Positions 15,613 to 21,954 of a stretch of DNA of 64,000 nucleotides are shown here, in pieces. Source of the DNA: an uncultured Flavobacteriaceae bacterium (GTDB taxonomy: Bacteria; Bacteroidota; Bacteroidia; Flavobacteriales; Flavobacteriaceae). The DNA is taken from NCBI GenBank assembly GCA_947503005.1, contig CANNCA010000002.1, positions 496,001 through 560,000 on the forward strand, in the 5' to 3' direction. A program made the translations under genes and the position numbers. Position 1 is the stretch's first letter. Every line of letters begins with the position of its first letter. The notes below the pieces were generated by a model. It saw only the letters and a program-made list of their open reading frames with translations, made no database searches and was not told the DNA's origin.

Positions 15613-15645
15613 CATAGTTAAAAGGATTAGCGCATAGCAGCTTTG

Positions 15646-15676
15646 AAATCCCGACCTTAGAGTCGGGATTTTTTAT
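15646..15676 (+). terminator. Rho-independent terminator after the OmpA-family gene
   Basis: AAATCCCGAC-CTTAGA-GTCGGGATTT followed by TTTT: 10-bp perfect stem and T-run. Confidence 0.9.
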
Positions 15677-15691
15677 TCTTATCTTTCTCAT

Positions 15692-16813
15692 GTGAATTGC
15701 TATGATATTATTATTGTTGGTGGGGGTTTGGCCGGACTAACGGCTGCACTGCACCTTTCCCAGAAAAACTATTCGATTTTAGTAATCGAAAAGAAGAAAT
15801 ATCCCTATCACAAGGTTTGTGGCGAGTATGTGTCCAAAGAAGTCATCCCTTATTTGGAGCAACTTGGTGTTTCGTTTGGGGAGATACAGGTAAAGAAAAT
15901 TGACACCTTACTTCTTAGTTCTAGTAGCGGAAAATCGGTTCAAACCAAACTTCCTTTGGGTGGCATTGGGATCAGTCGTTTTACCTTAGATCAGCTGCTT
16001 TATCAAAATGCGATTGAAAAGTGTGTTGATTTTCAAACAGATACCGTATTGAGTATCGATTACAGAGAAAATATTTTTTTTATCACAACGGAACACGGTC
16101 GGCAATTTAGTGCCACCCTTGTTATAGGTGCCTACGGAAAACGTGATGCGCTTGATAAGCGTTTAGATAGAACATTTATAAAAAAAAAATCAGCTTGGCT
16201 AGGAGTGAAAGCACACTATGAATTTGATGATTTTCCTGATAATCTAGTTGCGTTACACAATTTTAATGGAGGATACGGAGGATTGTCCAAAACGGAGACC
16301 GGCGCAGTGAATTTCTGTTATTTAACTGCCTATAAAAGCTTTCAAAAAGAAAAGAACATTGAGGAGTTTAACAATAATGTTGTTGCGCAAAATCCTTTTT
16401 TAAAGGAATTTCTTAAAAATGCCCAACCAATTTTTGATGAACCATTGACGATTGCTCAAATATCTTTCGATCAGAAAACGGCAATTAAAAACCACGTTCT
16501 GATGTGCGGAGATACCGCCGGATTGATACACCCGCTTTGTGGCAACGGAATGGCGATGGCAATTCATGCGGCAAAGATTGCTAGCGAACTAATTTTCGAC
16601 TATATGGAAAGCAACGACCGCAAGCGTGCGAAATTGGAACAAGAGTACCAACGACAATGGAGCCAAGCCTTTACAAAACGCCTATGGATGGGGAGAAAGT
16701 TACAGGCAATTTTGTTGAACAAAACTATGTCTAAGTTATCCATGAACCTTGCAATTCAAACACCGTCTTTGTTACAACAACTCATAAAGAATACTCACGG
16801 CAAAACCTTATGA
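15692..16813 (+). CDS. FAD-dependent oxidoreductase (geranylgeranyl reductase/UbiH-like), type III PKS cluster
   Basis: DIIIVGGGLAGLTAALHLSQKNYSILVIEKKKYPYHKVCGEYVS; GDTAGLIHPLCGNGMAMAIHAAKIAS. Start upstream of the ATG or non-ATG is possible. Confidence 0.9.
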   Translation: MNCYDIIIVGGGLAGLTAALHLSQKNYSILVIEKKKYPYHKVCGEYVSKEVIPYLEQLGVSFGEIQVKKIDTLLLSSSSGKSVQTKLPLGGIGISRFTLDQLLYQNAIEKCVDFQTDTVLSIDYRENIFFITTEHGRQFSATLVIGAYGKRDALDKRLDRTFIKKKSAWLGVKAHYEFDDFPDNLVALHNFNGGYGGLSKTETGAVNFCYLTAYKSFQKEKNIEEFNNNVVAQNPFLKEFLKNAQPIFDEPLTIAQISFDQKTAIKNHVLMCGDTAGLIHPLCGNGMAMAIHAAKIASELIFDYMESNDRKRAKLEQEYQRQWSQAFTKRLWMGRKLQAILLNKTMSKLSMNLAIQTPSLLQQLIKNTHGKTL

Positions 16814-17544
16814 TGTTCAAAGACCTGTCAAAAAGAAGCACTGAACCTGAACTAATGGATGATTTCCAGGGCAGTATAGATTTGCTAAAGGCAGTTTTCG
16901 AAGACATTAATAAAGTAAATCGAATTTTGGGAGGTAATCAAATTACCGTAAATGCCGTAGCGCGATTGATTCGAGAAAATCCAAAAGAAAAATATGTTAT
17001 TGTTGATATGGGTTGCGGCGATGGTAGTATGCTGCGTGAGGTAGCGCAATATTGCCGAAAAAAAGGCATTAAAACGGAACTTATCGGAATCGATTTGAAC
17101 CGTGAGGCCTTAAGTATTGCAATTGAGAATTCAACCGAATATTCAGAAATCAGTTTTCAATATGCTGACATTCTAACATTCAGTACTGAGACCCTGAATT
17201 GTGATATTGTGATAAATACGTTGACCATGCATCATTTTACCGACACGCAACTGGTAATTTTTTTAAACAAGTTCATTGAGCTGGGCAGAATAGGGGTTGT
17301 CATCAACGACCTGCAAAGAAGCCGTATAGCATATTATCTATTTAAACTCTTTAGTGTTATTTTTATAAAAACAAAAGTTGCTAAAATTGACGGTTTGATA
17401 TCTATAAATAAGGGATTTGTCAAATCTGATCTGTTGTCATACGCGAAAGGCCTCCCATCGGTGTCGCATCAAATTAAATGGAAATGGGCCTTCAGATATG
17501 TATGGGTTATGAAGCCGATTCGAAAAAGAAAAGTATATGAGTGA
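16810..17544 (+). CDS. SAM-dependent class I methyltransferase, type III PKS cluster
   Basis: YVIVDMGCGDGSMLREVAQYC motif I; NTLTMHHFTD. Confidence 0.9.
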   Translation: MMFKDLSKRSTEPELMDDFQGSIDLLKAVFEDINKVNRILGGNQITVNAVARLIRENPKEKYVIVDMGCGDGSMLREVAQYCRKKGIKTELIGIDLNREALSIAIENSTEYSEISFQYADILTFSTETLNCDIVINTLTMHHFTDTQLVIFLNKFIELGRIGVVINDLQRSRIAYYLFKLFSVIFIKTKVAKIDGLISINKGFVKSDLLSYAKGLPSVSHQIKWKWAFRYVWVMKPIRKRKVYE

Positions 17545-18592
17545 GACCCGAATTGTTACCGTTGCAAAAACGTTACCTGAATATTGTCGCAGTACAGAAG
17601 AAATTATTCCTTTTGTGAAAATATGGCTGGCGGATGAAGAAGAACGTTTCCAAAGAAAGGTCGTTAAGATTTTCGAAGGAGCTGCAGTAGAGAAGCGTTA
17701 CGGTATTATGAACATTGAAGAGGTGTTTAGCGCTACTTCTTTCGAGGATAAAAATGCTATTTATGTTCGAGAAGTAAAGAAACTTGGAAAGGCCGTTTTG
17801 CAAAAAGCACTTAATCAAAGCGCTTGGCAAGCAGATTCTTTGGACTATATTATAACGGTAAGCTGCACGGGTATCATGATTCCATCGTTAGATGCCTATT
17901 TGATTAACGATTTAGGGTTACGTGAAGATGTTGTGCGTCTTCCGGTAACAGAGATGGGTTGCGCGGCCGGTATTTCAGGACTCATTTATGCGCACAACTT
18001 TCTTAAATCAAACCCAGGAAAGCGCATTGCATTAGTTGCCGTGGAAAGTCCGACCGCCACTTTTCAATTGAATGACCATTCGATGGCGAATATGGTAAGC
18101 GCGGCTATCTTTGGTGATGGGGCGGCATGTGTATTACTGTCTTCCGAAGAAGATGCTATAGGACCTAAGATACTCGGTGAAGCCATGTACCACTTTAAAG
18201 ATGCAACCCACATGATGGGTTTTGATTTGACCAATCACGGATTGAAGATGATACTAGATCCATCGGTTCCGGAGACGATTGCGGAACATTTTCCAAAAAT
18301 CGTACATCCGTTTCTTGAAGTTTACGGAACATCCATCGATGGGGTCGATCATTTAATTTTTCATCCTGGAGGGCGAAAAATTGTTCAAACTGTTGAGGAG
18401 TTATTCGGTAAATTAGGAAAAAATATAGACGATACACGTGAGGTTCTACGAGCTTATGGTAATATGAGTAGTGCCACTGTATTGTACGTTTTAGAACGTT
18501 TTATGAACAAGGACATACCTAAAGGAGAGAAAGGATTACTTTTAAGTTTTGGCCCCGGATTTTCGGCACAGCGGGTGTTATTGGAGTGGTAG
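17537..18592 (+). CDS. type III polyketide synthase (chalcone/stilbene/alkylresorcinol synthase family)
   Basis: Catalytic Cys TEMGCAAGISGL, His FHPGGRKIVQ, Asn YGNMSSATVLYVLE, GPGFSAQRVLLEW terminus. Confidence 0.96.
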   Translation: MSETRIVTVAKTLPEYCRSTEEIIPFVKIWLADEEERFQRKVVKIFEGAAVEKRYGIMNIEEVFSATSFEDKNAIYVREVKKLGKAVLQKALNQSAWQADSLDYIITVSCTGIMIPSLDAYLINDLGLREDVVRLPVTEMGCAAGISGLIYAHNFLKSNPGKRIALVAVESPTATFQLNDHSMANMVSAAIFGDGAACVLLSSEEDAIGPKILGEAMYHFKDATHMMGFDLTNHGLKMILDPSVPETIAEHFPKIVHPFLEVYGTSIDGVDHLIFHPGGRKIVQTVEELFGKLGKNIDDTREVLRAYGNMSSATVLYVLERFMNKDIPKGEKGLLLSFGPGFSAQRVLLEW

Positions 18593-18610
18593 TATTACAT
18601 TGAAGAAGAT

Positions 18611-19402
18611 ATGAATGATATATCAAATACAATAAATTGGGCCTTGATTCTTGGAGGCAGTAGCGGTTTAGGTCTCGCAACCGCAAAAAAGTTAGCAAGA
18701 CATGGATTTCATATTATAATTGTTCATAGAGATGCACGGGTTGATTTACAGCGGATTGAAAGTGATTTTGAAGAAATTACTTCAAGTGGAGTTCAGTTAA
18801 AAAGTTTTAATATCGATGTAGCCAATCCCGAAAAACGGATTTCCGTTTTGGAAGAAATAGCAACCACTATCGCCTCTGACAAAATAAAAGTACTGGTACA
18901 CAGTATTGCCAAGGGAAGTCTTAAACCCATGCAGTCAGATTCAGGAAACACTTTGGAACACCAAGACTTTACAATTACCCTGAATGCAATGGCACTAAGC
19001 CTTTATGATTGGGTAAAAGCAATTCACAATGACGGCTTATTTGCAGATGATACAAGAATTATTTCTTTTACCAGCGAGGGCAATGCAAAAGCTTGGCCCG
19101 GTTATGCTGCGGTTTCAGCGGCCAAAGTCACTTTAGAGGCTTTAACACGGAACATTGCACTTGAATTTGCATCATCAGGAATCAAAGCGAACTGTATTCA
19201 GGCGGGAGCTACAGAAACACCTGCGTTTTCAATGATTCCAAATAGTAATAAATTAAAAGAAAGTGCATTAAAACGGAATCCCAATAGGCGCTTGACCACT
19301 CCCGAAGATGTCGCTAACGTAGTTTATCTGTTAACAACCAATGAAGCCAAATGGATAACTGGTACGGTAATTAAGGTTGATGGAGGAGAAAGTTTGATGT
19401 AG
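18611..19402 (+). CDS. SDR family oxidoreductase, FabI-like enoyl-ACP reductase type
   Basis: ILGGSSGLGLATAKKLARHGF; VHSIAKGSLKPM; Y-x6-K (YAAVSAAK); DGGESLM end. Confidence 0.88.
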   Translation: MNDISNTINWALILGGSSGLGLATAKKLARHGFHIIIVHRDARVDLQRIESDFEEITSSGVQLKSFNIDVANPEKRISVLEEIATTIASDKIKVLVHSIAKGSLKPMQSDSGNTLEHQDFTITLNAMALSLYDWVKAIHNDGLFADDTRIISFTSEGNAKAWPGYAAVSAAKVTLEALTRNIALEFASSGIKANCIQAGATETPAFSMIPNSNKLKESALKRNPNRRLTTPEDVANVVYLLTTNEAKWITGTVIKVDGGESLM

Positions 19403-19407
19403 AAACC

Positions 19408-19436
19408 CCTGTCAGTTCGAGCCGGTCTCGACCTAA
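19408..19436. repeat. imperfect inverted repeat in the PKS operon (degenerate intergenic hairpin, possibly REP-like)
   Basis: CCTGTCAGTTCGAGCCGGTCTCGACC: CGAG/CTCG core with flanking partial pairing. Confidence 0.3.
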
Positions 19437-19488
19437 GTATTTCTGAAGAAACTTCTTGGTTGCGATTGTAGTTACAAACGAAAAAAGA

Positions 19489-19932
19489 ATGAAATTCAAA
19501 AGTATCATACAAAAACTTCCCTTTAGAAAACCCTTCCTTTTTGTGGATGAGCTTTTGGAAATTGATGATAAAGGCGCAAAGGGGTGCTATATTTTCCCTA
19601 AAATTTCCGATTTCTATAAAGGTCATTTTAAGGATAACCCAGTTACTCCTGGGGTTATTTTGACAGAATGTTGCGCCCAAATCGGACTGGTTTGTTTAGG
19701 AATCCATTTGTTGGGCGGCGCAACCGATACAAATTTGAAAATAGGTCTGACCAGTTCTGAAATGGAGTTTTTACTTCCCGTATTTCCAGGAGAGAAAGTT
19801 ATAGTATCCTCGAAAAAAGTATATTTCAGATTCCAGAAACTAAAATGCGAGGTAAAAATGCATAATAGAGAAGGAAAATTGGTCTGTAAAGGTATCATTG
19901 CAGGAATGTTCAAATCTGATAAGAATGGGTAG
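19489..19932 (+). CDS. 3-hydroxyacyl-ACP dehydratase (FabZ/FabA hot-dog)
   Basis: LPFRKPFLFVDELLEID; GHFKDNPVTPGVILTECCAQIG. Start at 19489 preferred. Confidence 0.9.
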   Translation: MKFKSIIQKLPFRKPFLFVDELLEIDDKGAKGCYIFPKISDFYKGHFKDNPVTPGVILTECCAQIGLVCLGIHLLGGATDTNLKIGLTSSEMEFLLPVFPGEKVIVSSKKVYFRFQKLKCEVKMHNREGKLVCKGIIAGMFKSDKNG

Positions 19933-21199
19933 ACGCGTAGTTATTACAGGATTAGGCGTATGTGCCCCGAATGGAATTGGATTGACCGATTTCACAAGAG
20001 CTTTGCAAAAAGGAAAGAGTGGAGTCCGTTTTCAACCCCGATTGGCCGAGTTGAAATTCGGCTGTCAAATAGCCGCAGAACCTTTGGTCCCGGACAACCT
20101 TGTAGAAAAGTATTTTACCCCGCTTCAACTTCGGGGATTGAATGCAAGTGGCCTTGTTTATGGCGTAATTGCTGGCACGGACGCATGGAACGATGCTGGA
20201 TTGAAACCAAATACCGGAGAAAGCCCAGATTGGGATAGTGGCATCATTTTTGGCACGGGGATTCTAGGGGTGGATAAATTCCGTGAATCGATTCATTTGG
20301 TAGATGGTCAAAATGTGAGGCGTTTGGGAAGTACTACGGTTCTTCAAACCATGGCAAGTGGAATTAGTGCTTATTTAGGAGGGATTCTAGGTTGCGGCAA
20401 TCAGGTGACTACGAATTCTTCGGCTTGTACAACGGGGACAGAAGGTATTTTGATGGCCTTTGACCGAATAACAGCTGGTAAAGCGGAACGCATGCTTGCA
20501 GGAAGTTGTAGTGATAGTGGTCCTTACGTTTGGGGCGGTTTTGACGCGATGCGTATTCTTCCGAGACAATATAATGATAATCCGACAAAAGCAAGTAGGC
20601 CTATGAGCGCCTCTGCTGCCGGTTTCGTTCCCGGAAGCGGGGCAGGGGCTTTGGTTCTAGAGTCATTGGATAGTGCGTTGGCTCGTGGTGCCAAAATCTA
20701 TGCTGAAGTATTGGGCGGGGCGGTCAATAGTGGGGGACAAAGAGGAGATGGTACCATGACGGCACCAAATAGTGAAGCAGTGCAACATTGTATTACGGAG
20801 GCCATTCTTCATTCGGGAATCGAAAAAAGTGATATCGATGTCATCAACGGGCATTTGACCGCTACCTCCAAAGATGCTTTGGAAATCGAAAATTGGAGTG
20901 AAGCTTTGAATCGCTCAGGAACAGATTTTCCATTTATTAATTCTTTTAAAGGGCTTTTTGGTCATTGCTTGGCTGCAGCGGGAAGTATTGAATGTGTCGG
21001 AGCGTTACTACAATTTCAGGAAAAAGAAGTTTTTGGCAATGTGAATTGTGAAGATGTACATTCTGAAATCGAAAAACATATTTCTGCTTCAAGAATACCC
21101 CGTAAAACGGAGAAATTTATTCCTAAAATCATTGCCAAGGCAAGTTTCGGCTTTGGAGACGTGAACGCTTGTGTTATTTTTGCTGCTTTTAACGACTGA
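19925..21199 (+). CDS. beta-ketoacyl-ACP synthase (KAS II/FabF-like)
   Basis: RRVVITGLGVCAPNG; Cys NSSACTTGTEG; His NGHLTATSKDALE; FKGLFGHCLAAAGSIE. Confidence 0.95.
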   Translation: MGRRVVITGLGVCAPNGIGLTDFTRALQKGKSGVRFQPRLAELKFGCQIAAEPLVPDNLVEKYFTPLQLRGLNASGLVYGVIAGTDAWNDAGLKPNTGESPDWDSGIIFGTGILGVDKFRESIHLVDGQNVRRLGSTTVLQTMASGISAYLGGILGCGNQVTTNSSACTTGTEGILMAFDRITAGKAERMLAGSCSDSGPYVWGGFDAMRILPRQYNDNPTKASRPMSASAAGFVPGSGAGALVLESLDSALARGAKIYAEVLGGAVNSGGQRGDGTMTAPNSEAVQHCITEAILHSGIEKSDIDVINGHLTATSKDALEIENWSEALNRSGTDFPFINSFKGLFGHCLAAAGSIECVGALLQFQEKEVFGNVNCEDVHSEIEKHISASRIPRKTEKFIPKIIAKASFGFGDVNACVIFAAFND

Positions 21200-21271
21200 G
21201 AAGATTCATTACGCCAAATTCCAAGCCTAAACTCAAATATCAGTATTGAAATTTGATATTTAAACAAAATA

Positions 21272-21523
21272 ATGAACGAAGAACGATATCAAAAACTAAA
21301 GGAAATTGTTAAAATATACCTTCCAGAGGATGTTTCAGTAGAAGATATATCCATGGAAAGCCATTTTATTAATGAACTCAATATCAATTCGGCAAACTTG
21401 GTGGACATTGTTCTTGATGTCGAGGATGCATTTGATATTATGTTGGAAAATGAGGATATGGATCAAATGCAAACCGTTATGGACGCACTGCAAATCATTG
21501 AAAAGAAATTGACTGTTAAATGA
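21272..21523 (+). CDS. acyl carrier protein
   Basis: 83 aa; NELNINSANLVDIVLDVEDAFDIML - Ser of the phosphopantetheine site and helix II. Confidence 0.9.
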   Translation: MNEERYQKLKEIVKIYLPEDVSVEDISMESHFINELNINSANLVDIVLDVEDAFDIMLENEDMDQMQTVMDALQIIEKKLTVK

Positions 21524-21954
21524 TTGGCGAGTTCTTATTATGGGCGAAGTCGAAGTTGAGTGTTGATAAACGACTTATTGCACTTTACTGCATTGTTTAT
21601 GTTTTATGGGGTCTTTTGATGAATTGGTTCGGCACTGCGATTGAGATTGCCAAATTCACTTATTGGTGGCAAGTAATAACCTGTTACATTTTGTACATGG
21701 TACCTATATCCCTGCTTTTACGAAATTTACCATTTCACACCCAATATGCTTATGGACTTATAGCCATGGGGCTTTTGGAATTCGGGGGATACGCGCTGGA
21801 AACTTCATATGCGTATCCGAATAACCTATTGGACCAGTTTTTTGGAGAACGTAATTTTGCCTTGGGGATGGCATTGTTCTTTGCGCTTTATTTTCCTATT
21901 GGGAATTGGGGCGTTCAGAAAATTTATAACATAATGTTTTCGAAAAACAACTAA
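21520..21954 (+). CDS. small integral membrane protein of unknown function at the end of the PKS operon
   Basis: 144 aa, about four hydrophobic segments; ATGA overlap with the ACP stop. Confidence 0.75.
   Translation: MIGEFLLWAKSKLSVDKRLIALYCIVYVLWGLLMNWFGTAIEIAKFTYWWQVITCYILYMVPISLLLRNLPFHTQYAYGLIAMGLLEFGGYALETSYAYPNNLLDQFFGERNFALGMALFFALYFPIGNWGVQKIYNIMFSKNN

Follow-up and report, generated by a model that had tools for sequence, protein, structure and literature searches.

A flavobacterial type III polyketide synthase operon that includes a partial type II fatty-acid module, probably for a phenolic lipid

Operons that encode a type III polyketide synthase (T3PKS) together with a class I methyltransferase and an FAD-dependent oxidoreductase have been described in picocyanobacteria (hidABC, for hierridin) and Planctomycetota. 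Planctomycete T3PKSs of such trios yielded pentadecyl- and heptadecylresorcinols in Corynebacterium, and inclusion of the methyltransferase and the oxidoreductase added one methylation (PMC10896814). The same trio opens an eight-gene operon at positions 15692–21954 of a 64,000-nucleotide stretch, hereafter the window (contig CANNCA010000002.1 of assembly GCA_947503005.1, positions 496,001 to 560,000), from the 4.58-Mb flavobacterial genome of an uncultured, marine Flavobacteriaceae bacterium. All eight open reading frames (ORFs) lie on the + strand and encode, in this order, the oxidoreductase (OX), the methyltransferase (MT), the T3PKS (PKS), an enoyl reductase (ER) of the short-chain dehydrogenase/reductase type (SDR), a dehydratase (DH), a ketosynthase (KS), an acyl carrier protein (ACP) and a membrane protein (MEM). 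The hierridin and planctomycete operons are expected to use a long alkyl starter and to give a methylated alkylresorcinol-type product, as is proposed here for the window, but they carry no fatty-acid synthase (FAS) genes, whereas in the window OX-MT-PKS is followed by KS, DH, ER and ACP. The likeness to hidABC was taken from the operon description rather than from alignments with HidA, HidB or HidC. A trio from Methylobacterium has MT and OX proteins homologous to those of the window, albeit more weakly than in the Bacteroidota trios.

Other described systems share further parts of this layout. The srsABC, bpsAB and pkqABC operons combine a T3PKS with a methyltransferase and, in srs and pkq, with a hydroxylase or oxidoreductase, and lead to alkylquinone-type products of the kind considered here, but they have no FAS module. 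Moreover, SrsB/BpsB-type methyltransferases are isoprenylcysteine-carboxylmethyltransferase (ICMT)-like, whereas the window MT matched class I models only (Methyltransf_31/25/11 and related); ICMT-annotated partners were present beside other T3PKSs. An earlier reading made from the sequence only had likened the trio to the Streptomyces srsABC operon, a parallel that proved too loose to be kept as written; the trio appears to fit the hierridin/planctomycete operons better (PMC10896814, PMC8086630). The arsABCD operon of Azotobacter vinelandii likewise places dedicated fatty-acid machinery beside T3PKSs, and direct acyl-ACP transfer to ArsB and ArsC is reviewed in PMC6274091, which also cites a paper on acyl-ACP use by germicidin synthase. 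However, ArsA and ArsD are multidomain type I synthases, whereas the window enzymes are discrete and incomplete as a set, with MT and OX in the same operon. The sequence-only reading had compared the locus with Ars while pointing to discrete type II enzymes; that description was correct, but the locus is not a member of the Ars type, as it has no type I FAS, and feeding by acyl-ACP is suggested by gene association. In the cyl cluster for cylindrocyclophane, the T3PKS CylI also receives its chain from ACP-based enzymes and forms an alkylresorcinol, but the chain is made by type I polyketide synthases with a halogenase and the product is a paracyclophane dimer, unlike in the window. Finally, flexirubin and dialkylresorcinol (DarA/DarB) clusters lead to resorcinol lipids as well, with the ring formed by DarB instead of a T3PKS, and no DarB is encoded in the window operon.

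We consider it probable that the operon specifies the synthesis of a phenolic lipid from an acyl chain made by a partial type II fatty-acid module of its own; the acyl-ACP would be handed to the PKS, giving an alkylresorcinol to be modified by OX and MT. Searching 248 genomes of the order and scanning 85,462 species genomes yielded orthologous loci in Flavobacteriaceae, Spirosoma, Pedobacter, Chitinophagaceae and Saprospiraceae, the nearest named PKS relatives being those of Maribacter, Zobellia and Ulvibacterium (82–88% identity). Gene order, for which the sequence-only reading had suggested a synteny comparison, was examined in the 88 complete Bacteroidota loci, i.e. those with enough flanking DNA, and OX-MT-PKS-DH-KS-ACP was kept in the same order in 88/88. 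Three genes were optional, namely SDR (79 loci), MEM (31 loci) and a gene directly after ACP for a 4'-phosphopantetheinyl transferase (PPTase, PF01648; 29 loci). SDR was absent from nine of the 88 loci (L040–L043, L053, L068, L090, L122 and L168), so that enoyl reduction is there apparently supplied by a housekeeping enzyme or skipped. The complete set OX-MT-PKS-SDR-DH-KS-ACP-PPTase-MEM was found in three loci (L038, L112 and L125), from which we take this nine-gene order to be probably ancestral.

The PKS and the KS were found to travel together. In the order-level sample, there was a sharp divide between PKS matches of a close clade, found in 40 genomes with at least 59% identity, and remote matches of ~28–37%. 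The close PKS clade (at least 521 bits) was present in 34 of 396 Bacteroidota genomes, and KS matches of at least 566 bits occurred in exactly those 34, the two genome lists being compared by eye; remoter KS genes were detected in five further genomes. No DH, KS or ACP gene was found near any of 20 remote Bacteroidota T3PKS loci, one of which had an SDR gene 5 kb away on the opposite strand. MT and OX homologues adjoined seven of these 20 T3PKSs. A tree built from 44 T3PKSs united the 19 cassette-associated PKSs, i.e. those encoded beside the fatty-acid module, in one clade with a support of 100/100, separate from the trio PKSs (HidC was not included). The T3PKS-MT-OX trio would thus be the more general arrangement, with the FAS module marking a single PKS lineage. 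Chance adjacency of the genes was rejected in view of the order kept in all complete loci and the identical sets of 34 genomes.

Catalytic residues were 100% conserved across ~90 orthologues per protein, in agreement with the sequence-only reading, which had judged those of the PKS, KS, FabZ-like DH and ACP to be intact. C142, H276 and N309 of the PKS were identical in 97 sequences, and the protein combines the chalcone/stilbene synthase fold with a Cys-His-Asn triad. In the KS, C168, H310, K342 and H347 were invariant and constitute the Cys-His-His plus Lys set of a FabF/FabB condensing enzyme, which is divergent, with 249 bits against a FabF equivalog cut-off of 494. H46 and E60 of the DH were likewise invariant, as was S40 of the ACP, the phosphopantetheine-accepting serine; this protein matched PF00550 just over the cut-off, and its modification site reads NSA, compared with DSL in the genome's own AcpP. 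Y165 and K172 of the SDR were conserved in all 90 SDRs with a YX6K spacing, which is that of FabI/FabL-type enoyl reductases, YX3K being that of FabG-type ketoreductases. Its nearest relative in both the PDB and NCBIfam was FabL, yet it scored 156 bits against the FabL cut-off of 328. The SDR was also considered as the missing ketoreductase and rejected, given YX6K in every orthologue. No ketoreductase, malonyl transferase or β-ketoacyl-ACP synthase III (KAS III) is encoded in the operon; these activities must be drawn from primary metabolism, which makes the module a partial one. Neither an acyl-CoA ligase nor a thioesterase was found in the conserved gene set of the orthologous loci.

The module also occurs without a T3PKS. 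Sister modules were located via the five remoter KS genes and a class-wide KS search, which also showed many of the remoter KS genes to sit in further T3PKS operons (52–64% KS identity). In L173 and L174, an SDR-DH-KS-ACP-PPTase module is divergent to DarB/DarG/DarH dialkylresorcinol genes (DarB with 635 and 615 bits, cut-off 550; DarH with 454 bits in L173, cut-off 300), which suggests a dedicated source of acyl-ACP for some flexirubin/dialkylresorcinol clusters. In L175–L177, DH-KS-ACP, with an SDR in L176, accompanies a GNAT-type protein of ~380–416 residues and a GT2 glycosyltransferase, a grouping that resembles a lipid or glycolipid pathway not yet recognised, and in L198 the module lies downstream of a PglD-like hexapeptide acyltransferase. 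DarB, BtrH-type DarH, GNAT proteins and hexapeptide acyltransferases belong to families that use acyl-ACP or acyl thioesters, and those beside the modules are candidate acyl-ACP consumers. The KS tree united all module KSs in a clade (100/99) to the exclusion of FabF and the flexirubin KSs of the genome, but did not settle the branching order within this clade. Because the module occurs beside acyl-accepting enzymes in the absence of any T3PKS, its job would be to make acyl-ACP, which favours a T3PKS that takes the chain off in the window.

In the pathway proposed, the KS, the DH and the FabL-like enoyl reductase would build an acyl chain on the dedicated ACP, and primary metabolism would supply the ketoreductase, the malonyl transferase and KAS III. 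The chain would be saturated or, where the SDR is absent, possibly unsaturated. The PKS would take it directly from acyl-ACP, add approximately three malonyl-CoA units and most likely close a 5-alkylresorcinol ring, which OX would hydroxylate and MT methylate, resulting in a methoxylated alkyl-hydroquinone or quinone lipid of the hierridin type that would stay in, or be exported to, the membrane. The folds nearest to the PKS, those of PKS11 with its long acyl starters and of CylI with a chain received from an ACP-based assembly line, are in line with this pathway. A methylated, ring-hydroxylated alkylresorcinol is accordingly worded here as the most likely product, as predicted from the gene set, and we infer the chain length, the ACP-to-PKS transfer, the resorcinol rather than pyrone ring, the sites of hydroxylation and methylation and the location of the product. 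The bespoke acyl-ACP starter put forward in the sequence-only reading is still the best reading, in keeping with the joint occurrence of PKS and KS, the PPTase gene in 29/88 loci and the absence of a ligase or thioesterase, while the hand-off itself is deduced from gene association.

Several observations weigh against this pathway or parts of it. Three loci of one genus (L191, L193 and L196; family f94), all with full context, lack a local ACP, and their KS genes end ~1.6 kb from an acpP-fabF pair that is housekeeping-like by score; L190 has no detectable ACP. The loss in the f94 genus indicates that a private ACP is not indispensable everywhere. These three loci may have reverted to the primary ACP, and the placement of acpP-fabF near ACP-less operons still fits ACP dependence. 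Among the sister modules, L187, L188 and L199 have no obvious acyl acceptor adjoining them. As to the ring, the cassette PKS clade, which is also marked by an E-S-P motif, has Phe or Tyr at position 229, where 20/21 other Bacteroidota T3PKSs have Trp, and Pro172 where those have Cys, so that the ring type is not readable from relatives. Position 229, F in the window PKS, is presumably the site of ArsB W281/ArsC G284, as mapped by eye via chalcone synthase.

These residues bear on a rather unlikely alternative, in which the module and the hand-off are the same but the PKS closes an α-pyrone (or an acylphloroglucinol), with OX and MT decorating an alkylpyrone. The structures nearest to the PKS, both in sequence and in predicted fold, are those of Mycobacterium tuberculosis PKS11, an alkylpyrone synthase that uses long acyl starters, and then CylI, which makes a resorcinol from a chain supplied by ACP-based enzymes (PMC8086630). 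The former would speak for a pyrone, as would the replacement of Trp by Phe/Tyr, given that one Trp/Gly change switches ArsB and ArsC between resorcinol and pyrone (PMC6274091, PMC9927152). However, PKS11 itself has Trp at the site aligned with 229 and yet produces pyrones, so this position is not decisive for the ring type. CylI, the second-nearest fold, is a resorcinol maker, OX and MT homologues accompany Trp-type T3PKSs in hierridin-like trios, and a phenol is the more expected substrate of a flavin hydroxylase. We regard as unlikely that the PKS uses ordinary acyl-CoA, with KS, DH, SDR and ACP only tuning the fatty-acid pool or making a separate product, even though planctomycete trio-type T3PKSs function in Corynebacterium without a partner ACP (PMC10896814) and one genus lacks the local ACP. 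The strict co-occurrence of PKS and KS in 34/34 genomes, the order fixed in 88/88 loci, the presence of a cognate PPTase in one locus out of three and a conserved set without an acyl-CoA ligase all argue for a PKS fed by the module. It is very improbable that the order is reversed, with KS, DH and ER elongating on the ACP a small starter, aromatic or derived from malonyl units, that the PKS has made. The top NCBIfam model of the PKS is indeed that of DpgA, the malonyl-only 3,5-dihydroxyphenylacetyl-CoA synthase (NF042429), but with 174 bits it is far below the cut-off of 425, and DpgA-type chemistry was rejected on this score and on the fold neighbours. Moreover, sister modules without a T3PKS adjoin acyl-accepting enzymes, so a PKS-derived starter is not needed, and no gene was seen that would load a PKS product onto the ACP. 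Assignment of the operon to the flexirubin/dialkylresorcinol pathway was also rejected, as it has no DarB and a flexirubin-like cluster lies elsewhere in the window's genome (L163, G000:C1:603000-622900; DarB with 650 bits, DarH with 509 bits).

The gene assignments are collected in Table 1. Four junctions overlap by 4–8 bp (OX/MT and ACP/MEM by 4 bp, MT/PKS and DH/KS by 8 bp), and the remaining gaps are of 18 bp (PKS-SDR), 86 bp (SDR-DH) and 72 bp (KS-ACP). For DH and KS, the ATG codons at 19489 and 19925 are the likely starts of what were longer mechanical ORFs. Eight co-directional genes with overlapping or near-overlapping ends, as originally read, were thus borne out by ORFs, spacing and Pfam/NCBIfam families, and the gene names were generally right, with the refinements that the SDR resembles FabL more than FabI proper and that MEM and SDR are optional members.

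Table 1. Operon genes and upstream hairpin, with positions in the window.
Feature	Assignment	Position	Strand	Basis, distribution and remarks
Hairpin	Terminator-like, end of upstream gene	15645..15672	+	11-pair stem, then T-rich tail
OX	FAD-dependent oxidoreductase, geranylgeranyl-reductase/UbiH-like superfamily, probable ring hydroxylase	15692..16813	+	Pfam/NCBIfam, conserved FAD motifs; 88/88 loci
MT	Class I S-adenosylmethionine-dependent methyltransferase, Methyltransf_31/25; PRK06202-like below cut-off	16810..17544	+	Pfam/NCBIfam; 88/88 loci
PKS	T3PKS, Cys142-His276-Asn309; clade signature E-S-P + F/Y229	17537..18592	+	Fold nearest PKS11 and CylI; clade support 100/100
SDR	FabL-like enoyl reductase, Y165-X6-K172	18611..19402	+	NCBIfam, motif; 79/88 loci
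DH	FabZ-like 3-hydroxyacyl-ACP dehydratase, His46/Glu60	19489..19932	+	Pfam/NCBIfam; 88/88 loci; TTG start 19456 as alternative
KS	FabF/FabB-like β-ketoacyl-ACP synthase, Cys168-His310-Lys342-His347, separate clade	19925..21199	+	88/88 loci; TTG start 19898 as alternative
ACP	Acyl carrier protein, Ser40 in NS(A) motif vs DSL of housekeeping AcpP	21272..21523	+	Pfam/NCBIfam; 88/88 loci
MEM	Small membrane protein, accessory	21520..21954	+	No Pfam/NCBIfam family; 31/88 loci

The upstream hairpin ends 19 bp before the GTG start codon of OX, which leaves almost no space for an ordinary promoter and leader, and transcription of OX would need read-through or a promoter that overlaps with the hairpin. 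Downstream, the operon is followed by a TerC-family gene on the opposite strand. The MEM family, present in roughly one locus out of three, has a mean column identity of 77% (20 orthologues); its model predicted with AlphaFold2 (AF2) is mostly helical, with a mean pLDDT of 83.5, and no relative was found in Pfam, NCBIfam or, by a fold search of this model, the PDB. In L186, a gene of the MMPL family, which includes lipid exporters, lies between PPTase and MEM, a possible sign that the product is exported. L112, L120, L125, L183 and L186 have another methyltransferase of the MT family inside or adjoining the operon, which suggests a doubly methylated product there. In one T3PKS locus, the KS match (G863:C8:84142-85422) contains one in-frame TAA, possibly just the natural gene end. 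Elsewhere in the window's genome, contigs C8, C10, C12 and C17 of G000 carry open frames of 1364–3981 residues with KS domains, which are large modular polyketide synthase or hybrid clusters, lying either on short contigs or at the end of a contig.

T3PKS loci, described in the sequence-only reading as commonly flagged in flavobacterial genomes, are indeed the second most common antiSMASH class in Flavobacteriaceae, with 9% of the clusters in a comparison of 66 bacteria that merely counts them (PMC7440613). No described product of this gene set was found in the open-licence literature, as that reading had likewise held. Actinobacterial three-gene operons make polyketide quinones that serve as electron carriers (PMC9927152), and a similar role is a possibility for the product of the window. 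On a wider and distinctly speculative view, KS, DH, ER and ACP might be a portable Bacteroidota acyl-ACP supply module for unrelated acceptors (T3PKSs, DarB/DarH, GNAT proteins and hexapeptide acyltransferases), feeding here a PKS dependent on its own carrier, with the methylated alkylhydroquinone as an alternative redox lipid like the actinobacterial polyketide quinones. The flavobacterial form of T3PKS studied here corresponds to a single conserved operon to which a partial type II FAS is matched, and the reuse of the same module beside other acyl-accepting enzymes, without a T3PKS, is new. The operon thereby provides a concrete case in which a type III PKS may be served by a private source of acyl-ACP, and it suggests where, within a large set of environmental bacteria, a so far unrecognised phenolic lipid might be sought.

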